In this document: positions 2,188-40,449 of the stretch, in pieces
Numbering within the stretch: the stretch's first letter is position 1
How the letters are laid out: each line of letters begins with the position of its first letter
Origin: Microbulbifer flavimaris
Lineage (GTDB): Bacteria; Pseudomonadota; Gammaproteobacteria; Pseudomonadales; Cellvibrionaceae
Direction of reading: 5' to 3'
Length of the DNA stretch: 64,000 bases
Assembly: GCF_001641755.2 (NCBI RefSeq)
Contig: NZ_LRFG02000001.1
Coordinates: 496,001 to 560,000 of the forward strand
The notes under the pieces: generated by a model
What the model was told of the DNA's origin: nothing
What the model saw: only the letters and a program-made list of their open reading frames with translations
Databases searched by the model: none
Program-made: the position numbers and the translations under genes

Positions 2188-2216
2188 TTTACTTCTCCGG
2201 CAGAATAAAATATTCC
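2188..2216 (+). promoter_or_regulatory. Promoter with overlapping GAATA-N3-TATTC operator, nagZ
   Basis: A perfect palindrome GAATA-AAA-TATTC lies at 2203-2215. A plausible sigma-70 promoter overlaps it: TTTACT at 2188, 17 bp, TATTCC at 2211. A second, degraded copy, GAATA-ATG-GATTA, lies at 2232-2244. The same palindrome occurs in other intergenic regions of the island, so it is a candidate site for the RpiR/MurR-type regulators encoded here. Direct binding is inferred, not shown. Confidence 0.6.
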
Positions 2217-2250
2217 TAGTTTTCCAAGAATGAATAATGGATTATCCGCA

Positions 2251-4179
2251 ATGATGCCCACACGTATTCTCCGCTTTGTGCGCCGATCCGCAGCGCTTGT
2301 TTCGACTGCCGCACTGCTGACTTCCCTCAGTGCCTGCGGCACCGATGCAACCGAACAGCGCACCCAGGTCCTGCGGGACAAGATTGCCCAGAAGATCATG
2401 CTGGACCTCCGCTACTTCTGCCCTGACCAGCAACGCAATGAGGAGAACCGGGGCCGCTGTGGGGAGCCGGTGACCGAGCTGCCCGAAACGCTTGGGCAGA
2501 TGATCAGTGACACCGGCATCGGCGGCATTATCCTGTTTGCGGATAACCTGGAATCTACGGAGCAGATCATTGCCCTGAATAGCGACCTGCAGTCTGCCGC
2601 CGCGGGATCCCACCACGGCAGTCCGCTCCTGATCGGTATCGACCAGGAGGGGGGCAGGGTGCACCGCCTGCCGCGGGCTGAGGCCACGGCCTTTGCCGGC
2701 AATATGGCCATCGGCGCCACTTATCCGCTGCACGGTGACCGCTTTGCCGGTGAAACCGCCGCGGCCATGGCGGAGCAACTGCGGGTGCTGGGCTTCAATG
2801 TGAATTTCGCCCCGACCCTCGATGTAAACAGCAACCCGGAAAACCCGGTGATCAACGTGCGCTCCTACTCTGAAAACCCGGAAGTGGTGGCGGAGCTGGG
2901 CGTTGCGGCAATCCGGGCTTTCCAGGAAAAGCAGGTAGCGGCCACGGTCAAGCACTTTCCCGGTCACGGTGATACTTCGGTCGACAGCCACACGGGCCTT
3001 CCGCGGGTAGACCGTTCCATCGAGCAGGCCCGGGCCATGGACCTGCTGCCGTTTACCCGTGCATTCGAGCAGGCTCAGCCGGCACTGACCATGACGGCAC
3101 ATATCCAGTACCCGGCCCTGGATGACACCACTCTGCCGGCGCAAGACGGTGAGGAGATCGTGGTGCCGGCGACGCTGTCGCGCCGCATCCTCACCGACCT
3201 GTTGCGCGGCGAGATGGGCTATGAAGGGGTGATTGTCACAGATTCCCTCGGCATGGCGGGCATCAGTGACTATTTCTCGGTGGAAGATGCGGTGGTGAAA
3301 ACCTTTGCCGCCGGTGCCGATATTGCGCTGATGCCGCTGAAGATCCGCTTCCCCGGGGATATTGCACAGCTTGATGAAATTATTGATCGGGCGGTGCAGG
3401 CGGTGCAGCACGGGGAGCTGTCAGAAGCGGAAATTGACGCTTCTATCGCTCGCATCGATGCCCTGAAGCAGCGCTATATCGATACCAGCTGGATCGCCGC
3501 CAGCGCGGCCGAGAAGCTAGAAGCAGCAGCTGCCGTGCTTGCCGAACCCAAACACGCGCAACTGGCGGAAGAGCTTGCCAGCGCTGCTGTCAGCGCCATC
3601 TATCCGCCTGCTGACGGCGTTCTGCCGGTGCTGGATGCCGATGCCAAGCGAATTCAGGTCATCGCCCCGAGTCCTGCCGTGGGAGAGGCTTTCCGGCTGG
3701 CGCTGGCGGGAGTAACGGGAGCCACCGTCGAAGTGCTTGAGACCCACACCGCGCTGGATAAGCTGCAGGAGGCGACCGGGGATGTCCTGATTGTCGCCAG
3801 CATCGTGCCCGGTGAAAGTGCCGTGGAACTGGGGGGCATGGAGGACCTGGGTAGACTGCGGCGCCCGCCGCTGCCTCTGGACGAACTCTACGGCGTCTAC
3901 GAGCGCAGTCTTGCGGTTGCCCGCGAGCGAGGCCAGAAGACTGTATTCGTGAGCATGCGTTCGCCCTATGAGGCGGCCCAGTTCCAGCGGCTGGCCGACT
4001 TGCATCTGGCCAGCTTCGACTACAAGGCCTACATCGGCGGCGACGATGTTTTCGAGGGTCCCATTTACCGTGCGCTGGCGCTGGCACTGGTCAGCGAAAT
4101 GGTTCCCGCTGGCAGCTTGCCCGTGACAGTGCAACCGGCCGAGGGCACTGCCGTAATTGAGGCAACAAGCGAGGGCTGA
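2251..4179 (+). CDS. nagZ: Beta-N-acetylhexosaminidase NagZ, lipoprotein form (GH3)
   Basis: GH3 glycosidase expected to remove non-reducing-end GlcNAc from murein saccharides or muropeptides. The NagZ signature KHFPGHGDTSVDSH lies near residues 233-246 and supplies the Asp/His pair typical of this family. The N terminus is a basic signal peptide ending in a lipobox (LSAC), so the enzyme is an envelope lipoprotein, unlike the short cytosolic NagZ of E. coli. At over 640 residues it carries an extra C-terminal domain, as in the long Bacillus type. I prefer the ATG at 2251 because the operator region extends to about 2244; an in-frame ATG at 2230 is possible. It opens the murein island. Confidence 0.88.
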   Translation: MMPTRILRFVRRSAALVSTAALLTSLSACGTDATEQRTQVLRDKIAQKIMLDLRYFCPDQQRNEENRGRCGEPVTELPETLGQMISDTGIGGIILFADNLESTEQIIALNSDLQSAAAGSHHGSPLLIGIDQEGGRVHRLPRAEATAFAGNMAIGATYPLHGDRFAGETAAAMAEQLRVLGFNVNFAPTLDVNSNPENPVINVRSYSENPEVVAELGVAAIRAFQEKQVAATVKHFPGHGDTSVDSHTGLPRVDRSIEQARAMDLLPFTRAFEQAQPALTMTAHIQYPALDDTTLPAQDGEEIVVPATLSRRILTDLLRGEMGYEGVIVTDSLGMAGISDYFSVEDAVVKTFAAGADIALMPLKIRFPGDIAQLDEIIDRAVQAVQHGELSEAEIDASIARIDALKQRYIDTSWIAASAAEKLEAAAAVLAEPKHAQLAEELASAAVSAIYPPADGVLPVLDADAKRIQVIAPSPAVGEAFRLALAGVTGATVEVLETHTALDKLQEATGDVLIVASIVPGESAVELGGMEDLGRLRRPPLPLDELYGVYERSLAVARERGQKTVFVSMRSPYEAAQFQRLADLHLASFDYKAYIGGDDVFEGPIYRALALALVSEMVPAGSLPVTVQPAEGTAVIEATSEG

Positions 4180-4191
4180 GTCATTTTGGTA

Positions 4192-4243
4192 GCGCCAATA
4201 TCGGGGAAGGTTGCGATGTTGGCGCGCGCCTATCGGTCGCGCC
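4192..4243 (+). other. Overlapping stem-loops between nagZ and the amidase operon
   Basis: GCGCCAA (4192-4198) can pair with TTGGCGC (4219-4225), and GGCGCG (4221-4226) with CGCGCC (4238-4243), so the two stems are mutually exclusive. There is no T-run, so this is not a clear terminator. Confidence 0.35.
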
Positions 4244-4271
4244 ATTAGTTCGTCACTTAATCCGAACAAGT

Positions 4272-4285
4272 AGTTTGCGCAAACT
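4272..4285. promoter_or_regulatory. Perfect 14-bp palindrome upstream of the amidase/oxoprolinase operon
   Basis: AGTTTGCGCAAACT is a perfect dyad 37 bp before the amidase ATG. It is unlike the GAATA-N3-TATTC element, so this operon may answer to a different regulator, which I cannot identify in the window. Confidence 0.5.
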
Positions 4286-4322
4286 GGACTGAACCTTAAA
4301 AGAAAAAACAGCAGGGTGCCCA

Positions 4323-5795
4323 ATGTCCGAGGATTTGTGTTATCTCGAGGCCTGTGAAGCCATTCAGCTTTTCAGGAAAGGCGAAGTGTCGCCAGTGGAT
4401 ATCCTGCGGGCACAGGCAGAGCGCATCGAGTCCTGCGGGACTGAGATCAACGCTTTTACCGCGCTGCATTTTGAGCGGGCCCTGGAGCAGGCACGTAAGG
4501 CTGAAACTGCCTATTTGAGTGGCACGGCCCGGCCTCTTGAAGGGGTCAACAGTGTCATCAAGGATGAGACTTTCCTCGCCGGGGAAATCACTACCAACGG
4601 CTCCCGCTTGATGCGTGACCATCGCGCCGATGTCACCGACCCGGTACCCGAGCGCTTGATCGGTGGCGGTGCAGTCGTCAGTGGGCGTACGACGACGCCA
4701 GAGTTTTCGGTGGCGGCCTACACCTGGTCTGATTTGTGGGGCGTAACCCGCAACCCCTGGAACCAGGCGGTTACTCCCGGTGGTTCTTCCGGGGGCTCCG
4801 CGGCGGCGGTTGCGGCGGGCTTTTGCACAATCGCCAACGGAACCGACATGGGCGGCTCCGTGCGTATTCCCGCATCAATGTGTGGGCTGGTGGGCCTCAA
4901 GGCCTCATACGGACGTGTGCCGGAAATTCCCCCCTACAATATCGACCCGTATGTGCACCACAGCGTCCTGACACGCAGCGTCCGCGACACACTGCTACTC
5001 TACAACCTGATTGCAGGGCCTCACCCGGTGGACCTGATGTCACAACTGCCGAAGGAAGTCGTGGCTTCGGAGCCCCTGGACCTGCGCGGCATGCGCGTGG
5101 GCCTGTCCCTGGATCTGGGCTTCTACCCCGTGGAAGACGATGTGCGCGAGAACACCCTGCGGTTTACAGAACAGCTGCGGCATCTCGGGGCAGAAGTGGA
5201 TACCGTCTCCCTGGATTGGGACGAGCGCTGTATCCGCACGGCGCAGATTCACCAGGGGGCGCAGATGGGGCATATGCTCCGGCAAAAATTCGACCGGCCG
5301 GAGTACCACGACCAGCTGACGTCCTATGCGCGCCATTACTTTTCCCTCTCCGAACAGGCGACGCCGGAAGAAATTCTCTGGGCTCACAGCTATGCCCAGA
5401 GCATGTGGGAGTCGCTGGAACGGGTTTTCAGGGATTGTGATTTCCTGCTGTGCCCGACGGTGTGTACGACAAAAGTACCCGCGGACTTTGACTACAGTCG
5501 CGATCTGATCAGCGTAAACGGCCAGGCGGTCGATCCGGTCAAGGGCTGGTTCATGACCTATCCCTTCAATACGCTCAGCCGCTGCCCGGTATTGTCATTG
5601 CCCAGTGGTATGGCGTCGAACGGTGTGCCCACAGGCGCACAGCTGGTTGGCAGGCCTTACACCGATGCTGCCGTGCTGCGCGCCGGTCTGGCGCTGGAGC
5701 AGGCGGGCGGGCCATTTATCAACAAAAAGCATTACCCGCAGCTCCATACTGACCAGCAGCTGGCGGAAAAGATTGTGCAGCGAGTGGAAGCATGA
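4323..5795 (+). CDS. Amidase-signature family hydrolase
   Basis: 490-residue amidase-signature (AS) enzyme. The glycine/serine-rich core GGSSGGSAAAVAAG with the following GTDMGGSVRIP supplies the Ser-cisSer part of the Ser-cisSer-Lys triad; the Lys lies in the N-terminal NSVIKDET. There is no signal peptide, so it should be cytosolic. AS enzymes cleave amide bonds in very varied substrates and family membership does not fix the substrate. It is the first gene of the D-glutamate/5-oxoproline operon and overlaps the next gene by 4 bp, so a small amide from murein peptides (for example an amidated D-Glu) is a reasonable guess, but only that. Confidence 0.85.
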   Translation: MSEDLCYLEACEAIQLFRKGEVSPVDILRAQAERIESCGTEINAFTALHFERALEQARKAETAYLSGTARPLEGVNSVIKDETFLAGEITTNGSRLMRDHRADVTDPVPERLIGGGAVVSGRTTTPEFSVAAYTWSDLWGVTRNPWNQAVTPGGSSGGSAAAVAAGFCTIANGTDMGGSVRIPASMCGLVGLKASYGRVPEIPPYNIDPYVHHSVLTRSVRDTLLLYNLIAGPHPVDLMSQLPKEVVASEPLDLRGMRVGLSLDLGFYPVEDDVRENTLRFTEQLRHLGAEVDTVSLDWDERCIRTAQIHQGAQMGHMLRQKFDRPEYHDQLTSYARHYFSLSEQATPEEILWAHSYAQSMWESLERVFRDCDFLLCPTVCTTKVPADFDYSRDLISVNGQAVDPVKGWFMTYPFNTLSRCPVLSLPSGMASNGVPTGAQLVGRPYTDAAVLRAGLALEQAGGPFINKKHYPQLHTDQQLAEKIVQRVEA

Positions 5796-6598
5796 ACCAG
5801 CGCAGTGCCAGCGAAATAAGATCAGCAATCCGGGCCGGGAAGTTTCAGGGGCCGACTTCCGGGCTCGCCCCGGGCCATGTGCAGGTCAATATCGCGATCG
5901 TGCCTGCGTCCGAGGCGGACGATTTTGAGGCTTTTTGTGATGCCAATGCCCGTGCATGTGCGCTGCTCTATCGCTCCCGCCCCGGCGAGTGCCTTCTACC
6001 GGCACTCGGTGCGGATATCGATATTCGCACTGATGTGCCGCGCTACCAGTTGCATTCCCCCGGTGGCGTGATCGAGGAAGTGACAGATATCCGCAAGCAC
6101 TGGCGGGATGATTTTGTGACTTTTGCGCTCGGTTGTTCTTTCTCTTTTGAGGAGGCGCTGATCAGCCACGGACTTGAAGTGCGCAATGTGAGTGACGGCT
6201 GTAATGTGCCGATGTACAGAACCGTACGCCGCTGCCAGTCTGTGGGCCGCTTCGCCGCGCGCCTGGTCGTCAGCATGCGCCCGTTTCCCTCCGAAACCCT
6301 TGATCAGGCTTACAGTGTCTGTGCGCGATATCCACTGGTCCATGGCGCGCCGGTTTTTGCGGGAGATCCGGCGGAGCTGGGCATTGCGAATATCCGTCGG
6401 CCGGATTTCGGCGATGCGGTGCAGATTGGCAGGGGCGAGGAGCCTGCTTTCTGGGCCTGCGGGGTCACGGCCATCGAGGCGGTGCGCAACGCGGGGCTCG
6501 ATTTCTGCATCACCCACAGTCCCGGCCATATGCTGATCACGGACAGACTCAATGAGTCCCTGGCTGGTATCACAGCTCGGGAGCAGCTGGGCTGGTAG
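5792..6598 (+). CDS. DUF1445 / D-glutamate cyclase family protein
   Basis: 268 residues with the conserved blocks of the DUF1445 (YcsI/PSRT, 'putative hydro-lyase') family: GCSFSFEEAL at 114-123, HGAPV at 184-188, FWACGVT at 220-226 and HSPGHM at 242-247. In the mammalian enzyme DGLUCY a DUF1445 domain is fused to DUF4392 and D-glutamate is converted to 5-oxo-D-proline. Here a separate DUF4392 protein is encoded four genes on. It overlaps the amidase by 4 bp and is followed by PxpB after 17 bp. Role inferred: dehydrative cyclisation of D-Glu from murein stem peptides, in the cytosol. Confidence 0.85.
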   Translation: MNQRSASEIRSAIRAGKFQGPTSGLAPGHVQVNIAIVPASEADDFEAFCDANARACALLYRSRPGECLLPALGADIDIRTDVPRYQLHSPGGVIEEVTDIRKHWRDDFVTFALGCSFSFEEALISHGLEVRNVSDGCNVPMYRTVRRCQSVGRFAARLVVSMRPFPSETLDQAYSVCARYPLVHGAPVFAGDPAELGIANIRRPDFGDAVQIGRGEEPAFWACGVTAIEAVRNAGLDFCITHSPGHMLITDRLNESLAGITAREQLGW

Positions 6599-6615
6599 GG
6601 AACAGGGCTGAATCC

Positions 6616-7329
6616 ATGTGGCGTTTACAGGACTCGGGGGACGAGTCAGTCACCATTTATCTTGCGGCGCATCCCAGTGAGCAGGTACTGCAGCGTATCA
6701 GTCAGCTGGTGGTATTGCTGCGGCGGTCGCTCGGCGACTGGCTGACGGATGTGGTGCCTTCCTATTGCAGTGTAACCATCTATTACGATTTGCTGCGATG
6801 TGATGGCCCGACAGTGGCCGCACGCCTGTCGTCGTTGATGGAAACTTTTGAGGCTGAACTTTCCGCTGACACAACAGGTACCGTCGCATCATCCGAGCGG
6901 GAGGTGGAGCTGCCGGTCTATTATGGCCGCGAAGTGGCGCCGGACCTGGAGCGCGTAGCGGATTTTGCGGGCCTGAAAGTCGAGGACGTCATCCGCTTGC
7001 ATGCGGACACAGAGTTTCGGGTTTACGCGCTGGGCTTCCGGCCGGGTTTTGCCTACATGGGTGAAACGCCGGAGCCGTTGCAAGTGCCGCGCCTGGAAAC
7101 CCCCAGGCGGAGTGTCCCCAGGGGCGCCGTCGCCATAGCCGGGCCGCAGGCCGCGGTCTATCCCTGCGTTTCCCCCGGTGGCTGGAACCTGATCGGGCGC
7201 TGCCCGATCGCGCTGTTCGATCGTTCGGAAAACCCGCCGCGTGTCATTTTGCAGGTGGGGGACCGGGTGCGTTTCAAGCCCGTGGATAAGAAGACTTTCC
7301 TGAAACTCGGCGGGGTGATGGATGAGTGA
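6616..7329 (+). CDS. pxpB: 5-oxoprolinase subunit PxpB (KipI-like)
   Basis: 237 residues of the KipI/allophanate-hydrolase-subunit-1 family. Diagnostic motifs are GFRPGFAYMGE near 140-150 and SPGGWNLIGR near 186-195. PxpB pairs with PxpC and works with PxpA in ATP-dependent opening of 5-oxoproline to glutamate. It overlaps pxpC by 8 bp, so the two are probably translationally coupled, and the DUF1445 gene lies directly upstream. Annotation as a kinase A inhibitor would be the older Bacillus-derived name. Confidence 0.9.
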   Translation: MWRLQDSGDESVTIYLAAHPSEQVLQRISQLVVLLRRSLGDWLTDVVPSYCSVTIYYDLLRCDGPTVAARLSSLMETFEAELSADTTGTVASSEREVELPVYYGREVAPDLERVADFAGLKVEDVIRLHADTEFRVYALGFRPGFAYMGETPEPLQVPRLETPRRSVPRGAVAIAGPQAAVYPCVSPGGWNLIGRCPIALFDRSENPPRVILQVGDRVRFKPVDKKTFLKLGGVMDE

Positions 7330-8266
7330 CATTGCCACGGTCGAAAAGGCTGGCCCGATGACGTTGATTCAGGATGTCGGCCGGCACGGGCAGCAGCATC
7401 TCGGTGTCAGTGTCGGTGGGGCCCTCGATCGACACGCCGCCGGTTGGGCCAACCACCTTTTAGGCAACGACCCCGCCGCGGCCGTGCTCGAGATTGTTCT
7501 CGGTCCTTTTGCGCTGCGCTTTGCGAGCGCTACCTGTATCGCCCTGAGTGGCGCGGACTGCGGCTGGCGACTCGATGGCGAACCGTTGCAGCTGTGGTCG
7601 TCGCACCGGGTGCCGGCGGGTGCTCTCCTGCAGGGAGGCATGGCCCGTAGTGGTCTGCGGGGATATCTGGCCGTCGCAGGTGGATTCCAGAGCACTCCGG
7701 TCTGGGGCAGTCGTGCCACGACCGTTGGCGAGGGGCTGGGGGGACTTTGTGGTGAGCCACTGCGGGTCGGCGATCAGTTGCCATATGTGGCGGATGACGA
7801 CGGTTTGCTTCGGCAAACACCGTGTGAATTTCAGCGTGAATATGGCGAGCAGACCGAGCCGCTCAATCTCCGGTTGGTGCCATCGAATCAGTTTGAAAAA
7901 TTCTCCCCATCTGCCCGGCAAAAACTGTTTTCGCAGAGTTACCAGATTGCACCGGATTCCGATCGTATGGGAGTCCGGTTGACGGGGGCTACCCTGGGGC
8001 AGGTGCCGGGCAATCTGGTATCGGAAGCGGTTTGTCCCGGGGCGGTTCAGGTACCCAGTAATGGTCAGCCCATCGTCTTGATGCGGGACTGCCAGACGAT
8101 CGGTGGTTATCCGAAAATTGGCCATGTTTACAGCGTCGATCTGGATTGGCTGGCGCAGGCGCGACCGGGCTCCCGGGTACGCTTTGAGCTTGGTTCACTG
8201 GCTGAGTCGCAGGCGCTGCTCAGGGAGCAACGCCAGTTTTTCCTCGGGGCGCGCCATGCCGACTGA
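7322..8266 (+). CDS. pxpC: 5-oxoprolinase subunit PxpC (KipA-like)
   Basis: 314-residue biotin-dependent-carboxylase-like/KipA domain protein, the normal partner of PxpB. The N-terminal GPMTLIQDVGRHGQ and the later DRMGVRLTG and VPSNGQPIVLM are typical family blocks. It has no signal peptide and should be cytosolic. It overlaps the DUF4392 gene by 11 bp. The overlaps on both sides show a tight operon in which D-glutamate cyclase and oxoprolinase functions are co-translated. Confidence 0.9.
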   Translation: MSDIATVEKAGPMTLIQDVGRHGQQHLGVSVGGALDRHAAGWANHLLGNDPAAAVLEIVLGPFALRFASATCIALSGADCGWRLDGEPLQLWSSHRVPAGALLQGGMARSGLRGYLAVAGGFQSTPVWGSRATTVGEGLGGLCGEPLRVGDQLPYVADDDGLLRQTPCEFQREYGEQTEPLNLRLVPSNQFEKFSPSARQKLFSQSYQIAPDSDRMGVRLTGATLGQVPGNLVSEAVCPGAVQVPSNGQPIVLMRDCQTIGGYPKIGHVYSVDLDWLAQARPGSRVRFELGSLAESQALLREQRQFFLGARHAD

Positions 8267-9233
8267 GTTTTTCCCAAGCGCGTCAACGCTCGTGCCTGCA
8301 CTTGCCGTCGAAATTGAGGAGCGACTGGTTCGCCTGGATCAGCGCGGCATGGAGCGCGTGCGCAAAGAGTGGCGCGCAGGCTATCTCCTTGAGGCCGTGG
8401 ATGCACTGTTACAGGAGCGGGCCCGGGTGTTGATTGTCAGTGGTTTTCCGATTGGCGAGACCTTCGAGACCGATGGTCCCGCAGGGGCGCTGGTACTGGC
8501 CTCGGCACTGCGAGAGCTCGGCTCCGAAGTGGCGCTGGCTGGCCTGCCGGCCTACCTTGCGCAATTGCGCGAGGGAGCGGCGTTACTGGGGTTGGAGAAC
8601 AATTTGCTCTACCAGTCTTCCAGCCTGGAATCAGGTGCGGACGTGAGCGCCCCGCTGCACCGGGCAGTTGAGCAATTCCGTCCCACCCTGCTGGTGTTTG
8701 TGGAAGTACCGGGGTCGGCCTCCGATGGTAATTATTACAACATGCGCCGGCAAAATATCAGCGCGCGGACTTTCGACTGGGAGCCACTGTTGTCTGTTTG
8801 CAACTGCCCGAGCATTGCCTTTGCCGACGGCGGCAATGAGTTGGGGATGGGACGTGTCGGGTCTGCGTTGCGGCAACTGGATATCGAGCCGGCGGTGTCG
8901 GTCACCGATCATCTGGTGATTTCCGACGTGTCCAACTGGGGTGTTTATGGCGCGGTCGCCCTGGCCTCCGCTCGCGTACACCGAGACCTGTTCCCGAGCC
9001 TTCCCCTCGAGACGTTGCTGCAGGCACTGAACCTGTCGGGCATTGTGGATGGCGTCACCGGCAGCACCACGCCCACGGAAGATGGCCTGCCGGCGGCGCG
9101 AGGGCAGAGCCTGATCAGGGAGTTGCGCCAGTTGGCGGCGTCCGCCATCGCGGGTTCGGACTTCCCGGAGCATTCTATACCGGAGCATTCCTCGTCCACT
9201 GTGGCTGAGGGCCTTGCGGAGTCAATTTCATGA
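8256..9233 (+). CDS. DUF4392 protein, D-glutamate cyclase C-terminal-type domain
   Basis: 325 residues starting at ATG 8256; the frame is open further upstream but that part lies inside pxpC. It carries the blocks expected of DUF4392: SGFPIGETFETDGPAGA at about 62-78, DGGNELGMG at 191-199 and SNWG at 226-229. In eukaryotic D-glutamate cyclase this domain is the C-terminal half and DUF1445 the N-terminal half. Finding both as separate proteins either side of pxpBC suggests a split cyclase or a two-step reaction. A distinct activity, such as handling the D/L configuration of 5-oxoproline, cannot be excluded. The stop overlaps the start of alr. Confidence 0.82.
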   Translation: MPTEFFPSASTLVPALAVEIEERLVRLDQRGMERVRKEWRAGYLLEAVDALLQERARVLIVSGFPIGETFETDGPAGALVLASALRELGSEVALAGLPAYLAQLREGAALLGLENNLLYQSSSLESGADVSAPLHRAVEQFRPTLLVFVEVPGSASDGNYYNMRRQNISARTFDWEPLLSVCNCPSIAFADGGNELGMGRVGSALRQLDIEPAVSVTDHLVISDVSNWGVYGAVALASARVHRDLFPSLPLETLLQALNLSGIVDGVTGSTTPTEDGLPAARGQSLIRELRQLAASAIAGSDFPEHSIPEHSSSTVAEGLAESIS

Positions 9234-10303: not shown

Positions 10304-10321
10304 GACGCACGGAGTAAAGGT

Positions 10322-11066: not shown

Positions 11067-11092
11067 AGCCAGGTTTTGAGTGCGTCCTGGCT
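11067..11092. terminator. Stem-loop between convergent operons
   Basis: AGCCAGG (11067-11073) pairs with CCTGGCT (11086-11092). It sits at the junction of two convergent genes but has no T-run, so it is only a weak terminator candidate. Confidence 0.35.
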
Positions 11093-17116: not shown

Positions 17117-17145
17117 TTGTTAGGCGCTTGTGAATAATGTATTCT
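17117..17145 (+). promoter_or_regulatory. Promoter with perfect GAATA-N3-TATTC operator, P60 operon
   Basis: Perfect palindrome GAATA-ATG-TATTC at 17132-17144. TTGTTA at 17117 and TATTCT at 17140 are 17 bp apart, so the operator covers the -10 region. It lies about 95 bp before the ATG of the P60 endopeptidase gene. Confidence 0.6.
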
Positions 17146-22138: not shown

Positions 22139-22183
22139 GAATAAATTATATTTACACGGTTTTTGTGAGTTGATAAATTATTC
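22139..22183. promoter_or_regulatory. Divergent control region with degenerate GAATA-N3-TATTC sites
   Basis: GAATA-AAT-TATAT at 22139-22151 and TGATA-AAT-TATTC at 22171-22183 each have one perfect half-site and 3 of 5 matches in the other arm. They lie in the AT-rich gap between divergent genes and may control both. Confidence 0.4.
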
Positions 22184-22326
22184 TACCGCAAGGGGGGCGT
22201 CAAGGATGGCTTTGGCCGGGCGTGAATCCCGCTGGCGGGCTCTCCGGCCCTGAACCTGGGTCGCGGCTCGCCCGCATGTTGCTTCAATGCTCTGGCCCTG
22301 TGGGGCTTTTCTGTAGGGGTACCATA

Positions 22327-23919: not shown

Positions 23920-23941
23920 GGACAGGTGTAAGGAGCGCCCA

Positions 23942-33063: not shown

Positions 33064-34117
33064 TATCCCCGCTGAGCATGATCGCAGCGCCCGGCTGCAG
33101 GCGCAGGTGCAGGCAGCGCTGGCGGATCAAAGGCCGCTGGAGATTGTCGGCAGCGACAGCCGGTCTCTTCTCGGGCTGGCCCCTGACTCCGATGCAATCA
33201 GCGTTGGCGATCACCGCGGTGTCATCGACTACCAGTCGGACGAACTGGTGATTCGTGCCCGGGCCGGCACGCGGCTGGTCGACCTGGAGCATTTGCTCGC
33301 CAGTCACGGCCAGCGCTTCGCTGCCGAGATTCCTGCACCCAGCGCAGAAAGCACGCTGGGTGGGGCAATCGCCTGTGGCTGGGATGCGCCATCACGCTCG
33401 CTGGGCGTCTCTATACGCGACACCGTGCTCGGATGCCGGTTGATTAATGGTCGCGGTGAAATCGTCAATTTCGGCGGCCAGGTGATGAAGAATGTGGCCG
33501 GTTACGATCTCTCCAGGCTCCAGGTTGGCGCACTGGGGACGCTTGGTGTCATTCTCGATGTGGCACTGCGGCTGGCACCTTTGCCAGAAAGGCAGGTAAG
33601 CCGATCGTTTGCCGTTCCCGCCGATGCACTGGAAGACTGGTGGCTGCGTTGCAGGGAGCTGCGACCGTTGCTCAGTGCCAGCTGCTACCAGCAAGGCTAC
33701 CTGCACTTACACCTGAGCGGTCGCGCCGCTGCACTGGACGAGCTTCTGCCGACGCTGGGGGGCGAGGCGCTGGATTTCGACTGGGCAGCACTCAGGGATC
33801 TTCGCAGTGATTTTTTCTGCGCGGATCAACTGGCCTGCCTGTATCTGCCTGCGCAAACACCCGTTGAGATCACGCAGGGAGAGGCCCTGCTGGAATGGGA
33901 GGGCGCCCGGGTCTGGGTGCGGGATGGCAATCACGACGCGCTGCAGCGCGAGGCACAAGCGGCGGGAGGCTTTCTCCGGGTCCTGCGTGGCGACCCGGTT
34001 GCGCCGGCCGTCGCTGCACCACAGTGGCACCAGCGGCTTAAAGACGCCTTTGATCCCGAGGGCATTTTCAATTCCGCCATTTTCGGCAGCCACTTTGAAG
34101 GTGGGGGAGGGCGCTGA
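33056..34117 (+). CDS. glcE: FAD-binding oxidase subunit GlcE
   Basis: 353 residues. A shorter FAD-binding_4 protein with SAESTLGGAIACGWD, GQVMKNVAGYDLSRL and GALGTLGVI. GlcE is the second flavoprotein subunit of the GlcDEF complex. It overlaps glcD by 8 bp and its TGA overlaps the glcF ATG, so the three subunits are translationally coupled. The C-terminal half is weakly conserved, as usual. Confidence 0.9.
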   Translation: MSDIPAEHDRSARLQAQVQAALADQRPLEIVGSDSRSLLGLAPDSDAISVGDHRGVIDYQSDELVIRARAGTRLVDLEHLLASHGQRFAAEIPAPSAESTLGGAIACGWDAPSRSLGVSIRDTVLGCRLINGRGEIVNFGGQVMKNVAGYDLSRLQVGALGTLGVILDVALRLAPLPERQVSRSFAVPADALEDWWLRCRELRPLLSASCYQQGYLHLHLSGRAAALDELLPTLGGEALDFDWAALRDLRSDFFCADQLACLYLPAQTPVEITQGEALLEWEGARVWVRDGNHDALQREAQAAGGFLRVLRGDPVAPAVAAPQWHQRLKDAFDPEGIFNSAIFGSHFEGGGGR

Positions 34118-35409
34118 TGCAGGTCAGGATTATTGACGACTTGTTGCATCCGGGAGAGGCGAAGCGGGCCGAGGAAGTACTGAACGCCTGCGTTCACTGC
34201 GGCTTCTGTACCGCCACCTGTCCGACGTATTTACAGGCGGGCAATGAGCTCGATAGTCCCCGGGGGCGGATATACCTGATCAAGGAAATGCTGGAAACCG
34301 GCGAGGCCTCGCCGGTGACCCGCACCCACCTGGACCGCTGCCTGACGTGCCTCAGTTGTGAAACGACCTGTCCGTCCGGAGTGGAGTATCACAAGCTGGT
34401 TTCAGTGGGGCGTGCAACCAGCGAAAAGCTGGCACCGCGTGGCCCGCTGCAAAAAGGCCTGCGCTTTATCCTGCGCAGCCTGATGGTGACACCGGGGTTA
34501 TTCCGGGGGCTGATTGCCATGGGACGGCCGTTTGCCCCATTACTTCCCGACGCGCTGCGGCGAGTGTACTTTCCACCCCGGGCCAAGCTTAACCCGTCGG
34601 CGAAGACGATACCGCTCGCGGCAATATCCTCGGAAGCTGGTTCCGGCCGGGGCAAGGTATTACTGGTGCGGGGCTGCGTGCAGCCGGTGCTGCGACCGGA
34701 AACGGATGCGGCATTCGTGAGAATTCTGAATGCCCTGGGGGTGCCGGTGGAGGAGTCCACGGCGGCGCAATGTTGCGGGGCGGCCAGTTTCCATACCAGC
34801 GGCGAAGACCAGGCCAGGTCACTGGCCCGGAAACAGGTGGATTTCTGGTGGAAACGCCTCAGTGATGAACCGATTCGAGCAATCGTATCCACGGCCAGCG
34901 GTTGTGGTGTGCACCTCAAAGACTACGCCACAGTGCTGGCGGATGATCCGGATTATTGCCACAAGGCTGAGCAGATCGCATCCCTGATCAGGGACCCGGT
35001 TGAAATACTCGAGGAGGCGTTTGCGGAGCAATCGCTCCATATCCCCGGCAAAGCGCGCCAGAGTGACTTCGTATTTCACTGCCCCTGTACCCTTCAGCAC
35101 GGTCAGGGGCTGACCGGGCGCGTGGAGAGGCTCCTGACGAAGCTGGGGTTTGCCCTGCCCGCGATAGAAGACGCCCACCTCTGTTGCGGTTCCGCCGGCA
35201 CCTATTCGGTACTGCAGCCCGCCATGTCCCGGGATCTGCGTGCCGAGAAACTCCAGCGGCTGGAAGCTTCGAGCCCCGCAACCATTCTGACCGCCAATAT
35301 CGGCTGCCAGCTGCATTTGCAGGGGGGCACAGAGACGCCCGTCCGCCACTGGCTGGAAGTGGTCGCGGACCTGGTAGAAGAGGGTAGTGAGAACAAAAGC
35401 GGCCGCTAA
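34117..35409 (+). CDS. glcF: Iron-sulfur subunit GlcF of glycolate/D-lactate oxidase
   Basis: 430 residues. Two 4Fe-4S motifs near the N terminus, CVHCGFCTATCP and CLTCLSCETTCP, followed by two CCG domains (AQCCGAASFHT and HLCCGSAGTYS). This is the electron-transfer subunit that passes electrons from the flavin subunits to quinone at the inner membrane. It ends the plus-strand run that began with the beta-lactamase-fold gene and faces murQ tail to tail. Confidence 0.92.
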   Translation: MQVRIIDDLLHPGEAKRAEEVLNACVHCGFCTATCPTYLQAGNELDSPRGRIYLIKEMLETGEASPVTRTHLDRCLTCLSCETTCPSGVEYHKLVSVGRATSEKLAPRGPLQKGLRFILRSLMVTPGLFRGLIAMGRPFAPLLPDALRRVYFPPRAKLNPSAKTIPLAAISSEAGSGRGKVLLVRGCVQPVLRPETDAAFVRILNALGVPVEESTAAQCCGAASFHTSGEDQARSLARKQVDFWWKRLSDEPIRAIVSTASGCGVHLKDYATVLADDPDYCHKAEQIASLIRDPVEILEEAFAEQSLHIPGKARQSDFVFHCPCTLQHGQGLTGRVERLLTKLGFALPAIEDAHLCCGSAGTYSVLQPAMSRDLRAEKLQRLEASSPATILTANIGCQLHLQGGTETPVRHWLEVVADLVEEGSENKSGR

Positions 35410-35537: not shown

Positions 35538-36485
35538 TCAGGCAAGCGCCTCCTCAGCTTGCCTTTCTGGCTTTACCTCTTGTAACGCCAGCCTCAGGAA
35601 ACCGTTGGAGTGATCGATGGCCTGCTCGGCTGCAGCGCGGTCAAGCCCGCTCAAGATCATCATGATGGCGAGCTTGGCATTGTGGTCGCATTGCCCAAGA
35701 ACCCGATCGGCCTCATCGAGGTCAACCCCGGTGGCTTCCATCACGATTCGCCGGGTGCGCCCGATCAGTTTCGCGTTGGTGGCTTTCACGTCCACCATCA
35801 GGTTATAGAAGCTCTTGCCCAGTCGGATCATGCTGGCCGTGGTCAGCATGTTGAGTACCAGCTTCTGTGCAGTACCCGCTTTCATGCGGGTGGAGCCAGT
35901 AAGAATTTCCGGACCGACTTCCGGCAGAAGTGCGATATCCGCTTCGTTGGCAATGGCTGCTGCGCGATTGCAGGACAGGGCCACTGTGACACAGCCGAGC
36001 TCTCGCGCATATCTCAGGCCACCGATCACATAGGGGGTGCGGCCACTGGCTGCAATGCCAACCACCACGTCCTTGTTGCACAGTTTGATTTTCTCCAGAT
36101 CGGCGCGACCGAGGTCGGGGTTGTCCTCGGCACCTTCCTGGGCCCGGTACACTGCTTCGTCGCCACCGGCGATCAGGGCCACGACCATGTCTTCATCAAC
36201 TCCATAAGTCGGAGGGCACTCCACGGCGTCGAGGATTCCCAGCCGGCCACTGGTGCCGGCACCCATGTAAATGAGCCTGCCTCCGGACTTGAAAGCTTCG
36301 ACAATTTTATCGACCGCTTCGGCGATCTGCGGCAGGACGCGGTGCACTGCCACGGGCACCTCGCGGTCTGCAGTGTTGATTTTTTCCAGAATCGCCTCGG
36401 TGGGCAGCAGGTCAATGTCCTGCGTATCCGGATTACGTGCCTCGCTGGTGAGGCGACTCAGCTCCTGAATCAGGTCTTGGTTCAT
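35538..36485 (-). CDS. murQ: N-acetylmuramic acid 6-phosphate etherase MurQ
   Basis: 315 residues from the ATG at 36485. The SIS-domain phosphate site GAGTSGRLG is at 75-83 and the catalytic Glu89 is in [21 protein letters not shown] is also characteristic. MurQ cleaves the lactyl ether of MurNAc-6-P to GlcNAc-6-P and D-lactate in the cytosol. The kinase and transporter genes lie upstream on the same strand, and the GlcDEF genes converge from the other side. The frame stays open upstream to 36638, but that stretch reaches the kinase stop and shows no conserved residues. Confidence 0.95.
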
Positions 36486-36627
36486 CTTTGAATTCCAGAG
36501 TTTGGCGAGTGCGGGGTTTACGCCTGTTATAACGCCGGCGGCATCAAACCCAAATTCGCCCGTTTGCCACGTTTTTCCTGGAAAATTGGGCTCCAGGATC
36601 CTTCCTAATAAGACTAATTGACTAAGG

Positions 36628-37506
36628 TTAGAGCACACTCACCACATTGGACTCGCCCCTCGACAGAATGCAGGCGCCATCGAGCGCGGTACCCAGTGGC
36701 GGTATCAGGCGCTCCTGCAGGTCCGCAGACAGATAGGGCACCAGTTTGTCCGCGAGTCCGCCCAGCAGTGCCAGCGGCAGTGCTTCTGCGGCGGACGCAG
36801 CGCGAATCAGGCGCTCGACTTCCGCGGTGGTATTAGTGACGATTTCCCGCGCCAGGTCGCAGCCTGGCAGGTGGGAAAAAACCACTGGGGCCAGGGATCC
36901 GTACTCCAGCGAGCCCGCGCTCTGCAGCCAGCCCAGTATCGGTCCGCGATGCTGGCCAACCTCCGCCATAATCTGCTGGCAGAGCCGGGTGCGGGGGCTG
37001 CCGTAGATGTCCAGCTCCCAGAGCAGGGCGCGCACAGCGCTCTTGCCGATTGCCGCGCCGCTGCCCTCGTCACCGACGGCGAGTCCCCAACCACCAAACT
37101 GGCGGATTTCACCGGTGCTGGCGAGCCTCATGACCACCGATCCAGTGCCAATGGCGGCCATTACCAGCGGGCTACCGGCACCCGCGCCGATCAGGGAGGT
37201 TCGTGCGTCAGAGGTGACCGTTACCTCTGCAAACCCCAGGGACACCAGTCTCGCTGTCAGCTTAGCCGCGGCGGAGGGGTTGCCCGCGCCTGCGACACCG
37301 CAGACCAGGTGAACCTTTTCCGCTGGCAAGCCGCTGCGGCTCAGTAAATCGCGACAAAGCCCCATGGCATTGCCAATCGCGCCCTCGATGTCCTGGGTGA
37401 GGGAGCAGGGTCCGGCGCGCAGCTCCAGAGGTTCGACGCCCGGGCCGCCAATGCGCCCCAGGGTTTTCGTCCCTCCGCCATCAATGCCGAGAAAGTACTG
37501 GCTCAT
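36628..37506 (-). CDS. BadF-type amino-sugar kinase, probable MurNAc/GlcNAc kinase
   Basis: 292 residues of the BadF/BadG/BcrA/BcrD ATPase family, with the phosphate-binding GIDGGGTKT at 7-15, AIGTGSVV and [16 protein letters not shown]. The family includes eukaryotic-type GlcNAc kinases and the MurNAc/GlcNAc kinase MurK of clostridia. Because NamZ and NagZ would deliver free, non-anhydro sugars and no phosphotransferase system is present, this enzyme is the expected source of MurNAc-6-P for MurQ. It overlaps the symporter gene by 4 bp; 142 bp separate it from murQ. Confidence 0.88.
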
Positions 37507-39077
37507 GCCCGGGCTTCCTCGGAGACCCCACCCGCGACCTGTTCTGCGGGTTTACCGAGGCAACAGATGGAGAAGGCGATGGCGGTACCCAGACACAGCT
37601 GCCAGGTAAACGCCAGGTTGAGGGGTTCTTCATTGCCCGTCAGCAGGGTAATCATCCATGGCTGCAGCAGCAGGGTGACGATAAAGCCTCCCGCGAGTGC
37701 CAGGGTGACACTCAGGCCGTTGCCCCGGTTGGTAAACAGCACGGTAAAGAAAACACCGAGCAGGCCGGAGTAGGCAAAGACCATCACCGACAGGGCAAAG
37801 GTAATCAGCGGCAAATCACTGATTTGCTGCCAGTAGAAGCACAGTATTGCCATGCCGCTCAACGCCACACCGATGAGGGCCATCGCGCTGCGCCCGGCGA
37901 CCACGAAGTGATGGGCTGGCTTGCTGATATTCCGTTTCTCCAGCCAGTTGCGATACAGGTCCTCGGTGAGCACACTGGCCATGGAGTTCAAGCTCGAGTT
38001 CAGGGTCGACAGTGCTGCGGCGATAACGCCGATGGTCACCAGCCCGCGCAGGCCTGCTGGCATTTCGTTGAGCACGTAGTGCATGAACACGGTGATGTCG
38101 CCGCCGGCGGGTGTCGAGACGGCGGTTGCACCCATCAGCTCTGGTGCCTGGTAGAAGATATAGAGCAGCAGGCCAATCCCCATAAATACCGCCATCACCG
38201 GAGCCACCATCACAACGGACAGCAGCATGGCGCGGGCGCCATCGCGGGGGGTCTTGCAGGTGAGCAGTCTCTGGGTGACATCCTGGTCGAGGCCGAAGGC
38301 GGCAATATTCAGCAGTACAAATCCGGTAAATGTGGCCCAGATGTTGAAAGGGTCCTGCAGGTTCCAGCTGGTGTCTACCAGGGCAAGCTTCGAGCCGCTG
38401 CCATCGACGGGATTTTGCAGCGCCGAGACAATCGAAGCCAGGTCGGCGGGTATCTGCCACAGCAGGACTCCAACCACCGCAATGGCGGCGCTGACATAGA
38501 CAACGCACTGCAGTACGTCGCTCTGGATGACGGAGCGCACGCCGCCGATCAGGGTCTGCAGAAGGCCCGCAGCGGTCAACACCAGCACTGCCAGCACCAC
38601 GTGGTCTGCATCGATGTCCTGGAACAGGATCATCGAGACGGCGATCGCCGCCATATAAAGACGCGCGCCGCTGGCAAAGACCCGCCCGAGGAGATACATC
38701 GCCCCGGCCTTCTGCTTGGCACCCTCGCCAAACCGGGTCTGGAGCAGCTCGTAAACGGTGGTGACGCGCTGGGCATAAAAGCGGGGAATCAGGTGTCTGG
38801 CAACCAGGAAAGCTGCCAGAATGGCCCCCAGGTTGGTGAACAGGTAAGTCAGGTCGCCCCGGTAGCCGAGATCCGGGCCGCCGAGAAAAGTGGCTGCGGA
38901 TTGGGTGGTGGCCAGGGTGGATATGGCCACCATCCACATGGGCATACTGTTGTGCGCCAGGAAGTAGTCGCGGCTATCTGCGGAGCGGCTCCGACTGAAA
39001 TACCATCCGCTGGCCAGGAGAATGGCCCCGTAAATTGCAAAGATTGCCCAGTCGAGTCCCGTGAACTGCAATTCCAT
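37503..39077 (-). CDS. Sodium:solute symporter, candidate MurNAc transporter
   Basis: About 524 residues from ATG 39077 (a TTG 17 codons upstream is also open), with 13-14 membrane segments and the SSS features GGPDLGYRGDLTY, TTVYELLQTRFG and ALSTLNSSLNSMASVL. SSS proteins co-transport sugars and related solutes with sodium. Its 4-bp overlap with an amino-sugar kinase and linkage to murQ make MurNAc and/or GlcNAc the likely cargo, replacing the PTS permease MurP of E. coli. A comparable transporter-kinase-etherase arrangement is known for MurNAc use in Tannerella. Confidence 0.87.
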   Translation of the reverse strand: MELQFTGLDWAIFAIYGAILLASGWYFSRSRSADSRDYFLAHNSMPMWMVAISTLATTQSAATFLGGPDLGYRGDLTYLFTNLGAILAAFLVARHLIPRFYAQRVTTVYELLQTRFGEGAKQKAGAMYLLGRVFASGARLYMAAIAVSMILFQDIDADHVVLAVLVLTAAGLLQTLIGGVRSVIQSDVLQCVVYVSAAIAVVGVLLWQIPADLASIVSALQNPVDGSGSKLALVDTSWNLQDPFNIWATFTGFVLLNIAAFGLDQDVTQRLLTCKTPRDGARAMLLSVVMVAPVMAVFMGIGLLLYIFYQAPELMGATAVSTPAGGDITVFMHYVLNEMPAGLRGLVTIGVIAAALSTLNSSLNSMASVLTEDLYRNWLEKRNISKPAHHFVVAGRSAMALIGVALSGMAILCFYWQQISDLPLITFALSVMVFAYSGLLGVFFTVLFTNRGNGLSVTLALAGGFIVTLLLQPWMITLLTGNEEPLNLAFTWQLCLGTAIAFSICCLGKPAEQVAGGVSEEARA

Positions 39078-39277
39078 CAGTGCCCACCCATTGTTATTCT
39101 TCTGTGCGCCGTAAGCGACAGTACTCAATTATTCCTAATATTATTGCATATTGGTATCATTTATTCTTTCGCGGGGCAAAAGGTTTGCCATCGGCAGAAC
39201 CGATTGCCGCATCCAGCCTTGCCCTCGCGAGCTAAATGGCGTGTTAGTAGAGAGCGAGAGGTCTGCGCTCTGAACGA

Positions 39278-40162
39278 GTGAAAGCTATGGGATCGATCGC
39301 AAAAATCCGCGCCATGCGCGACTCAATGTCCAATCACGAGCAGCGTATCGCGGATTTTCTCCTTGATAATGTGGAAGAGGTGCGCGAGCAATCCTCCAAG
39401 GCTCTGGCTGAACGGATTGGTGTTTCCCAGTCCAGCGTGGTCAAGTTCAGCCAGAAGCTCGGCTATAAAGGCTACTCAGACCTCAAGCTATCGCTCACTG
39501 AATCCCTCGCCCGCACCGCGCTGCTGCCAAAAGCAATCCACGGTGACATCGCAATCGGCGATGACGTCACCACGGTGGCGCAGAAGCTCATTGCTCGTAA
39601 GACGGTATCCCTGAACGAGACTCTGGCGGTGAACCCCGAAGCCCGGCTGCTTGAGGCAGTGGGCCTGCTGGCCGGCGCCGGGCGGATTCTGATGGCTGGT
39701 GTGGGTGCGTCTTCGCTGGTGGGCAAGGACCTGGCATTCAAGCTGATGAAGCTGGGCAAGCCGGTGCTGGTAGAGAGTGATACCCATGTGCAGATGGCCA
39801 ATGCGGCCACCCTCGGAGAGGGGGACGTTGTATTTGCCATCTCCGAGTCGGGCCAGACGCAGGAAATCGTTCGAGTGGCAGAGGCGGGGCTGGCACAGGG
39901 TGCGGTGGTGATTTCCCTGACCAGTTTTTCCCGCAACCCCCTGGTTGAGGTTGCCGGCGTGAATCTGTTCTGTGTAGCCGATGAGGCCGGCACCCGCAGT
40001 TCCTCGATACTTGCCCGCACCGCACAGCTAATGGTGACCGATCTTTTATTCCTGCTGATGTCCCAGCGAGATGAAAAGGCCAAGGATCTCTTCGAGCGCA
40101 GTCGCGAAGCGGTGGCGGTTTTTCGAGAGCAAAGCCAGCAAAAAAAGCCCCGCGCCAACTGA
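39278..40162 (+). CDS. RpiR/MurR-type regulator 2, sugar-phosphate SIS domain
   Basis: 294 residues from GTG 39278; ATG 39287 is an alternative. HTH_6 domain with GVSQSSVVKFSQKLGYKGY at 48-66, identical to regulator 1, followed by a canonical SIS domain with GVGASS and S189-E-S191-GQT. It is transcribed divergently from the symporter-kinase-murQ operon, the same layout as MurR and MurQP in E. coli, so MurNAc-6-P is the expected effector. The 39129-39277 gap is AT-rich and has a degraded GAATA/TATTC-like element (39154-39166). Confidence 0.92.
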   Translation: MKAMGSIAKIRAMRDSMSNHEQRIADFLLDNVEEVREQSSKALAERIGVSQSSVVKFSQKLGYKGYSDLKLSLTESLARTALLPKAIHGDIAIGDDVTTVAQKLIARKTVSLNETLAVNPEARLLEAVGLLAGAGRILMAGVGASSLVGKDLAFKLMKLGKPVLVESDTHVQMANAATLGEGDVVFAISESGQTQEIVRVAEAGLAQGAVVISLTSFSRNPLVEVAGVNLFCVADEAGTRSSSILARTAQLMVTDLLFLLMSQRDEKAKDLFERSREAVAVFREQSQQKKPRAN

Positions 40163-40229
40163 CTTAAATGCCAATTAAGCCCTAACTGACGTCATCTGCA
40201 TGAATTTTTGGCTGAATGGATGACGGTAC

Positions 40230-40259
40230 TTGCTTCAATCGAGAAGGAATAATATATTC
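40230..40259 (+). promoter_or_regulatory. Strong promoter with perfect GAATA-N3-TATTC operator
   Basis: TTGCTT at 40230 and TATATT at 40253 are exactly 17 bp apart. The perfect palindrome GAATA-ATA-TATTC at 40247-40259 covers the -10. It lies after regulator 2 and drives rightwards into a stretch with no visible gene before a strong terminator. Confidence 0.65.
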
Positions 40260-40264
40260 TTAAT

Positions 40265-40449
40265 CGCTCCCTGCTTTGCAATAAACGGTTTTAGCATCGA
40301 GTCGTTCTGGAAAGTCGGGAGTGGCGGGCTCATCCAGTCCATCGGTATTTGACGGGCTGAGTCGGCATTTTCACCTTGAACTTCCAATTCCGGATTTCCC
40401 TTCCGCAAGAATTGGCTTTCAGGGGGTGGGTTCTCCCACCCCCTTTTTT
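40265..40449 (+). ncRNA. Candidate operator-controlled small RNA
   Basis: About 185 nt from the predicted start to a strong terminator. Open frames inside it have no ribosome site or recognisable product. A long 3' UTR of the regulator gene, or an attenuated leader for the small gene at 40554, are the alternatives. The 40163-40553 intergenic region otherwise holds only this promoter and terminator. Confidence 0.45.
40422..40449 (+). terminator. Rho-independent terminator
   Basis: Perfect 9-bp stem GGGGGTGGG/CCCACCCCC with a 4-nt loop TTCT and six T residues. Confidence 0.92.

Follow-up and report, generated by a model that had tools for sequence, protein, structure and literature searches.

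The 64-kb window analysed here (C1:496001-560000; the window is this whole stretch, and positions are counted within it unless a contig or locus is named) belongs to the 3.64-Mb genome of Microbulbifer flavimaris. It holds a block of 31 genes, from 2230 to 40162 in our own gene list, that is probably the core of a murein-catabolic regulon in which a sugar branch and a stem-peptide branch are joined. This reading rests on enzyme families, motifs, synteny, a palindrome common to both branches and the conservation of an RNA; from these we infer the substrates, the binding of the regulators, the direction of regulation and growth on murein. Murein catabolism as such is well supported, and the gene order is beyond chance because it is kept in the loci of 21 other genomes.

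A first-pass annotation of this DNA had described a self-contained island of about 31 genes for a nutritional, hydrolytic route through murein, distinct from self-recycling. Our gene count agrees, the murein enzymes that it named were all recovered in place (Pfam over curated cut-offs, NCBIfam for MurQ), and the nutritional hydrolytic route stands apart from self-recycling as proposed. The term self-contained is not supported: the GlcNAc-6P deacetylase gene nagA lies on another contig, a TonB receptor and a receptor-like protein that carry the palindrome are both on C4, Pfam scans of the block turned up no endo-acting glycosidase, and the two modules that compose the block also occur separately.

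Gene content

The block and its flanking features are as follows.

1..1988, +, TonB-dependent receptor, 3' part (PF00593; Plug domain in L082:15475-16998; start at C1:495475, 526 bases left of the window)
2203..2215, operator-like palindrome before NagZ, one mismatch to GAATAAnTTATTC
2230..4179, +, NagZ-type GH3 lipoprotein, ybbD type (PF00933; 3bmx; lipobox LSAC)
4323..5795, +, amidase-signature enzyme (PF01425)
5792..6598, +, D-glutamate cyclase family, DUF1445 half (PF07286; NF003969 over cut-off)
6616..7329, +, 5-oxoprolinase PxpB (PF02682; TIGR00370 over cut-off)
7322..8266, +, 5-oxoprolinase PxpC (PF02626; TIGR00724 over cut-off)
8256..9233, +, D-glutamate cyclase family, DUF4392 half (PF14336 in ORF 8103-9233; start chosen manually)
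9230..10303, +, alanine racemase (PF01168/PF00842; TIGR00492 over cut-off)
10322..11053, +, 5-oxoprolinase PxpA (PF03746; NF003816 over cut-off)
11091..11720, -, exported C39-like cysteine peptidase (PF13529)
11798..12775, -, AmiD-type N-acetylmuramoyl-L-alanine amidase lipoprotein (PF01510, Amidase_2; AmpDh3 and AmiD matches; lipobox LAGC)
12760..13317, -, exported NlpC/P60-like protein (PF00877, weak: 26.6 bits against a cut-off of 23)
13314..15506, -, exported M1-like metallopeptidase (PF01433; motif HEVGH)
15503..16696, -, MFS transporter (PF07690)
17132..17144, operator-like palindrome before P60, one mismatch
17241..18641, +, SH3-NlpC/P60 gamma-D-Glu-diamino acid endopeptidase, YkfC type (PF12913+PF00877; 3m1u; start chosen manually)
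18653..19747, +, L-Ala-D/L-Glu epimerase, YkfB type, mandelate-racemase-type (PF13378; 1jpm)
19784..20575, +, RpiR-family regulator of the peptide module (PF01418)
20665..22110, -, exported transglutaminase-like protein (PF01841)
22139..22183, two operator-like sites, spacing 32 bases, between divergent genes
22222..23919, +, beta-lactamase-family protein, D-Ala peptidase type (PF00144)
23906..24994, +, LdcA S66 LD-carboxypeptidase with twin-arginine-like leader (PF02016/PF17676)
25123..26517, +, NhaC/ArcD-type antiporter, peptide module (PF03553)
26521..28455, +, Orn/Lys/Arg-type decarboxylase (PF01276; lysine decarboxylase models under cut-off)
28523..29194, +, VanX/DdpX-type D-Ala-D-Ala dipeptidase lipoprotein, M15 (PF01427; NF033115 under cut-off; lipobox LTAC)
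29248..30441, +, NamZ exo-beta-N-acetylmuramidase lipoprotein (PF07075/PF20732; lipobox LSGC)
30444..31634, +, NagX-type membrane glucosamine N-acetyltransferase (PF07786; NF046061 at 163 bits against a cut-off of 480; start chosen manually)
31639..35409, +, GlcD-GlcE-GlcF 2-hydroxyacid oxidase, proposed D-lactate oxidase (Pfam, NCBIfam)
35538..36638, -, MurQ MurNAc-6P etherase (SIS domain; TIGR00274 over cut-off)
36628..37506, -, BadF-type sugar kinase, proposed MurNAc/GlcNAc kinase (PF01869; 1zc6, 8zo3)
37503..39128, -, sodium:solute symporter, proposed MurNAc importer (PF00474; 5nv9)
39154..39166, operator-like site between symporter and MurR, two mismatches
39278..40162, +, MurR, RpiR family with SIS domain (Pfam, NCBIfam)
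40247..40259, operator-like site after MurR, one mismatch
40265..40450, +, small-RNA candidate with a terminator at its end

NCBIfam cut-offs were reached by MurQ, PxpA, PxpB, Alr, GlcE, GlcF and the PF07286 protein. The motifs KHFPGHG and DSH are present in NagZ, GYSD in LdcA, GTSGRL in MurQ, DCTG in P60, STHK in the decarboxylase and STTK in the beta-lactamase-family protein; DdpX reads SGHSRGATVD, the motif expected being SxHxxGxAxD. Among solved structures NagZ is best matched by 3bmx, the two-domain ybbD (E 6e-96), the epimerase matches the L-Ala-D/L-Glu epimerase 1jpm over its full length (E 8e-100), the larger P60 matches 3m1u, a putative gamma-D-glutamyl-L-diamino acid endopeptidase (E 7e-24), and the amidase at 11798-12775 matches AmpDh3 (E 4e-53) and AmiD (E 4e-52). 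Together these make up a MurNAc catabolic module of the murTKQ/NamZ type, with NamZ, MurQ, sugar kinase and transporter clustered, and a stem-peptide module of the ykf type, with P60 endopeptidase, epimerase and S66 carboxypeptidase together. The decarboxylase lies in the same murein locus, and diaminopimelate may be its substrate, as an idea only.

The export signals that the first-pass annotation saw on many hydrolases are borne out by lipoboxes on NagZ, AmiD, DdpX and NamZ and by the leader of LdcA, and a GGC lipobox is present in the beta-lactamase-family protein if its start is taken at an inner Met; all are manual readings of the output of a simple script, with no trained predictor behind them. 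So many exported hydrolases could also serve as a bacteriolytic weapon that kills neighbours for the catabolic genes to harvest. The glycosidases, however, are exo-acting, several of the hydrolases are lipoproteins, and Pfam scans of the block proteins recognised no endo-acting lysozyme or dedicated secretion system in the block; we give a weapon only a very slim chance.

The BadF-type kinase (36628-37506) had been left unnamed. Its nearest solved relative is 1zc6, a probable GlcNAc kinase (E 6e-28), and the MurNAc/GlcNAc kinase 8zo3 follows at E 3e-16. In phmmer alignments with residues placed by hand, the lactyl position lacks a bulky Glu or His, reading GGW like that of the dual kinase 8zo3, and a Ser stands ahead of the catalytic Asp. 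Tannerella MurK has S-P-L at the lactyl position and a Thr before the catalytic Asp; measured against that description, the predicted pocket would admit MurNAc without being diagnostic of it (PMC10465942). The relatives found by searching with the kinase came from Microbulbifer first, then from Simiduia and Neptunicella.

Conservation as two modules

NamZ was found in 22 of 48 genus genomes (this one and 47 congeners), and MurQ lies at most 16 kb from NamZ in all 21 others. The loci around NamZ of these 21 were compared with the block proteins; all counts are lower bounds, since some stretches are short (G014 gave 20 kb only, and the G037 stretch ends before MurR). A further 16 kb of G046, scanned apart, gave no block-protein match. 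Relatives were found of MurQ in 21 loci; of NagZ, NhaC, the symporter and the beta-lactamase family in 20 each (the last at only 28% identity in G042); of the kinase, AmiD, NagX, LdcA and transglutaminase in 19 each; of the epimerase, RpiR, MurR and the larger P60 in 18 each; of the decarboxylase in 17, GlcD/E/F in 16 and DdpX in 14. The DUF1445 cyclase, PxpB and PxpC are less widespread (11 each), as are PxpA and the C39-like peptidase (6 each) and alanine racemase (5). Gene order is maintained across the 21 loci apart from losses, insertions and the changing position of a C39-like gene.

The amidase, DUF4392, small P60, M1 and MFS genes co-occur in one set of 9 of the 21 genomes, and these nine also have relatives of the TonB receptor (1..1988), at 69-90% identity in three and 43-45% in six. 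All nine other genomes with DUF4392 have DUF1445, which stands alone in two.

The two modules can part. G042 has the sugar module alone, with the peptide module on a different contig, and NamZ-free G015, G023, G031 and G035 carry the peptide module, adjoined by AmiD in G031, so that it stands apart from the sugar module in five loci. The block is therefore an apparent merger of two modules with exchangeable additions. At E 1e-60 the epimerase was found in 25 of 48 genomes, being 21 of 22 with NamZ and 4 of 26 without (counts that ignore kinship). GlcDEF adjoins MurQ in NamZ-free G035 and G036, which favours D-lactate as its substrate.

Among the matches listed, the nearest named relatives of NamZ are seven Microbulbifer loci (70-76% identity); beyond these most of the best 80 matches are from Bacteroidota, and an older gain of NamZ from that phylum is possible. 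A recent foreign origin was considered for the block and rejected, its G+C of 0.58-0.62 resembling the 0.56-0.61 of the surroundings. At the order level NamZ occurs in 8 of 293 genomes, three of them in the genus. G074 (40 kb), G075 (20 kb), G263 (14 kb) and G282 (a whole 22-kb contig) have no block gene besides NamZ except for one weak beta-lactamase-family match, and the fifth, G162, with NamZ in two pieces, was left out of the locus comparison. Outside the genus 73 NamZ loci were compared, some of them short, and a comparable set was found only in Bowmanella (L024), with P60, epimerase, symporter, kinase, MurQ, NamZ, MurR, NagZ, AmiD and the beta-lactamase family.

Some genes in and near these loci are of other kinds. 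In G001 two tryptophan-halogenase-family genes lie in the block between a TonB receptor and a receptor-like gene (L125:6710-9986), and in G006 MacB-type and HlyD-type export genes take the place of NagX and GlcDEF (L118:7339-11050). The part of our window from 42600 to 64000 includes an amino-acid exporter family member, an aromatic transaminase and a class II DAHP synthase.

One palindrome at both modules

Exact gapped palindromes were counted upstream of 15 block genes in 22 genomes. The form that stood out was GAATAA-n-TTATTC, found exactly before NagZ in 10 genomes and before P60 in 11. As GAATAAnTTATTC it marks both modules: at up to one mismatch it precedes NagZ in 21 of 21 upstream regions and P60 in 19 of 19. 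At up to two mismatches, the divergent gap between the transglutaminase and beta-lactamase-family genes has two copies 32-33 bases apart (20/20), and the symporter upstream region one copy (19/20). The NamZ upstream region has no palindrome in the block genomes except G042, and those of NhaC, DdpX and MurQ do not carry it regularly. Block genes thus share a palindrome at their promoters, as looked for in an RpiR/MurR regulon. Genes scattered and independently regulated in related genomes had been named beforehand as an outcome that would count against the pathway; what was found is a largely syntenic block with one palindrome at the promoters of both modules.

The window has seven sites at up to two mismatches where 0.52 are expected, a number reached in 0 of 100 shuffles, and no such site between 42600 and 64000. 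This genome has 10 sites at up to one mismatch in 3.6 Mb and none of the reversed pattern; 4.0 Mb simulated with a first-order Markov model contained no exact and two one-mismatch sites. Genus-wide, 14 of the 22 NamZ genomes have 24 exact copies, 23 of which fall by position in block or peptide-module loci, the remaining one (G012, C3:55624) lying outside such loci. Among peptide modules of NamZ-free genomes, three of four retain a one-mismatch site before P60, G015 being without. Two-mismatch sites also occur in the Bowmanella cluster: 20 bases downstream of the P60 start as predicted, ahead of MurR, and between NagZ and AmiD.

Chance alone might have brought together two or three nutrient clusters with no relation to each other, for GlcNAc or chitin, D-amino acids and glycolate: the peptide module does stand alone in five loci, MurQ goes with GlcDEF in two NamZ-free genomes, and NagX and the kinase resemble GlcNAc-pathway proteins. 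Against this, one palindrome marks both modules, even in G042 where they are on separate contigs, and the core enzymes fit one polymer. We regard a chance assembly as very improbable.

The regulator at 19784-20575 (RpiR) and MurR (39278-40162) have an identical stretch, VSQSSVVKFSQKLGYKGY, and by these identical recognition stretches both are predicted to bind the palindrome. An SIS-type motif is kept in MurR (SESGQTQEI) and degenerate in RpiR (CDFGGEETL), so the two may read different signals. The 32-base spacing in the divergent gap would suit a dimer of dimers, by analogy with NanR, a tetrameric RpiR protein whose site differs from the palindrome here (PMC12713135).

Tagged genes outside the block

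Of the 10 near-exact sites (up to one mismatch), three fall within the block or at its end, and five precede four off-block genes that played no part in motif discovery. Two of these genes are on C4 and encode a 1053-aa receptor-like protein, with two sites, and a 902-aa TonB-dependent receptor; the others are an M14 zinc carboxypeptidase gene, which lies 5 kb to the left of the window, and a beta-lactamase-family gene on C2. Three of the four have relatives inside the block in other genomes.

Relatives of the 1053-aa protein, in which carboxypeptidase-regulatory-like and similar domains and no TonB barrel were recognised, occur at 13 NamZ-genome loci, one over half its length. Eleven lie between NagZ and MurQ and have the identical tag GAATATCTTATTC 51-61 bases upstream; those in G017 and G042 lie outside NagZ-MurQ and have no tag. 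The 902-aa receptor has five close relatives (75-79%) between NagZ and MurQ, three with a one-mismatch tag, and five more distant ones (35-37%) without. Relatives of the off-block beta-lactamase-family gene are in the block of two genomes, neither tagged. The M14 gene has relatives in three genomes; as in this genome, they lie outside the block on the left of NagZ, and those of G004 and G012 carry the same tag. The M14 row of G013 was left out because its upstream slice ran off the stretch.

Left of the window the M14 carboxypeptidase is followed by a class-III aminotransferase (L082:11054-14102; C1:491054-494102). A class-III aminotransferase lies left of NagZ in eight other loci, and the regulon may therefore extend leftward of the window by 5 kb or more.

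A small-RNA candidate after MurR

Read by eye, the sequence around the site at 40247 contains a -10-like TATATT, which the site overlaps, and a TTGCTT 17 bases upstream; a promoter scan did not list this promoter-like sequence. About 110 bases past the site come a conserved TCACCTTG and a hairpin, CCAATTC/GAATTGG, and then a terminator at 40421-40444. With this locus counted, the palindrome lies 46-153 bases after MurR in 17 of 21 loci that have a MurR match. The 186-base stretch folds at a z of -5.0, and 0 of 200 shuffles were as low. The seven pairs of the first hairpin hold in 17 of 17 sequences and hardly vary, giving no covariation support; in the terminator stem, where the alignment is poor, 4-6 sequences have both sides of four pairs changed, and in 3-5 sequences these pairs are broken or gapped.

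A model of the RNA built from the 17 sequences found one match each in 19 of 48 genomes, namely 19 of the 22 with NamZ and 0 of 26 others (Fisher p 1e-10, from counts that ignore kinship). G025 and G037 were matched though outside the 17 sequences; in G025 no palindrome was seen after MurR, which there gave two matches. G006, G042 and G046 gave no match under strict filters by which weak matches can be lost. Against Rfam nothing in 39000-41000 exceeded the gathering score, the best in 40342-40450 being AniS (25 bits against 50, E 0.16). We also tried the 101-aa secreted ORF at 40554-40859 as the tagged gene and rejected it, as it was found in only 3 of 21 other loci. Two 7-base complements of the conserved stretch were sought near block gene starts as signs of cis targets; one occurs in 3 of 17 GlcD upstream regions, no other gene reached three, and none is claimed.

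Our fullest model is tentative, and we rate it somewhat below even: two paralogous RpiR sensors sharing one DNA code, one for a sugar phosphate and one for a peptide-branch signal, would jointly control the whole of sugar and stem-peptide catabolism along with outer-membrane receptors and a new small RNA, which would silence other genes in trans through an exposed CACCUU.

Recycling genes lie elsewhere

Enzymes of the same families serve recycling in other bacteria, and this genome has no second strong MurQ match, so that the block might recycle the cell's own murein, its exported hydrolases acting on the cell's own turnover products. The anhydro-sugar route and the reuse enzymes, however, all lie outside the block. 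AnmK is present in 48 of 48 genus genomes (here at C3:3422), an AmgK-MurU pair is at about C3:43-44 kb in this genome (MurU at 258 bits over a cut-off of 250, AmgK at 262 under a cut-off of 550), and nine SLT-type domains are all outside the block. The block itself is patchy: 26 of 48 genomes are without NamZ and 15 without a strong MurQ match (E < 1e-100, found in 33 of 48), yet they have AnmK. The end steps GlcDEF and PxpABC would moreover be unnecessary for reuse. We consider self-recycling unlikely, and the nutritional role claimed in the first-pass annotation is favoured by the same observations.

NagA is at C2:118571, so that what follows in the sugar branch also takes place with enzymes from outside the block. 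About 0.7 kb from NagA (L187) is a 354-aa SIS-domain frame with a weak MurQ match (C2:120221), which may be a deaminase.

Evidence against a murein regulon

Several observations weigh against the regulon as we read it. NCBIfam cut-offs were missed by NagZ (185 vs 207), by PxpC in its own model (242 vs 500), and by GlcD (651 vs 897), DdpX (226 vs 320) and LdcA (194 vs 378), so these five are family-level names. The kinase is closer in sequence to a GlcNAc kinase than to the MurNAc/GlcNAc kinase, and for the kinase, symporter, amidase, MFS transporter and GlcDEF the substrates are guesses from gene context. No enzyme is assigned to the conversion of 5-oxo-D-proline into the oxoprolinase substrate. 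As to the palindrome, motif discovery and the first count used identical upstream regions, the operator overlaps a -10-like sequence, so that the similarity may partly be that of promoters, and six exact copies occur in the 26 NamZ-free genomes. Two near-exact sites of this genome, C3:21694 near a copper chaperone gene and C5:233786 inside an NhaA-family ORF, look like chance. The off-block support is uneven (tags 3/5 for the 902-aa receptor, 0/2 for the beta-lactamase family, M14 never in the block). Growth, regulator binding and RNA expression are predictions from sequence.

Proposed pathway

Outside the cytoplasm AmiD would separate peptide from glycan, NamZ and NagZ would trim MurNAc and GlcNAc off the chain ends, and P60, LdcA, DdpX and the beta-lactamase-family enzyme would cut the stem peptides. 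The symporter would import MurNAc and the BadF kinase phosphorylate it, supplying the substrate of MurQ, whose products would be GlcNAc-6P, taken by off-block NagA, and D-lactate, oxidised by GlcDEF. The epimerase would convert L-Ala-D-Glu to L-Ala-L-Glu; free D-Glu would be handled by the split D-Glu cyclase and PxpABC, and free D-Ala by the racemase. Two RpiR regulators, one per module, would bind GAATAAnTTATTC and tie the modules, the off-block genes and the small RNA into one response.

Relation to known systems

Bacillus subtilis has an operon murQ-murR-murP-amiE-nagZ-namZ with PTS uptake. The block has in common with it a secreted ybbD-type NagZ, NamZ, an amidase, MurQ and MurR, while uptake here would be by symporter and BadF kinase. 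A separate B. subtilis operon, ykfABCD, includes an ABC transporter. LD-carboxypeptidase family, L-Ala-D/L-Glu epimerase and SH3-NlpC/P60 endopeptidase stand together in both, but here the peptide genes are joined to the sugar module and lie beside an RpiR regulator. Gram-negative recycling (AnmK, AmgK, MurU) deals with the same polymer and some of the same bonds, with genes that here lie outside the block.

The block also resembles murTKQ of Tannerella forsythia, where an inner-membrane MurNAc transporter, an ATP-dependent MurNAc kinase, MurQ and NamZ muramidases scavenge external MurNAc (PMC7670621, PMC10465942). Unlike the block, that AmpG-containing cluster serves a MurNAc auxotroph, and the available text of the same papers describes for it no stem-peptide module, D-lactate oxidase or shared palindrome (PMC7670621, PMC10465942). 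In the animal D-glutamate cyclase DUF1445 and DUF4392 are fused (PMC5132392, PMC5339696), whereas here they are two genes inside the oxoprolinase run of a murein locus; the split form is not new, since split homologs, six of them counted in gut microbes, are on record (PMC11580864). MurQ has served to predict MurNAc use in other aquatic bacteria (PMC5507952), and a MurR regulon has been named in lactic acid bacteria (PMC3616900).

The enzyme types are familiar, and counterparts of the modules are known. The apparent novelty lies in joining a sugar and a peptide branch under a single palindrome, together with members outside the block and a conserved RNA; among the open-licence papers listed by our literature search, no title or opening of an abstract dealt with a murein-catabolic regulon in Microbulbifer. 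To our knowledge little is known of marine consumers of whole murein and their genes. D-amino acids, largely derived from bacterial walls, have been called an important part of marine refractory dissolved organic matter (PMC6965332, PMC12363236). The block should let a marine bacterium use cell-wall sugars and peptides as food, and the locus offers concrete genes for this trait, along with a DNA tag that can be searched for and a marker in the form of a small RNA, in a genus with cultured members, in which the question of murein consumption is therefore testable by knockouts.

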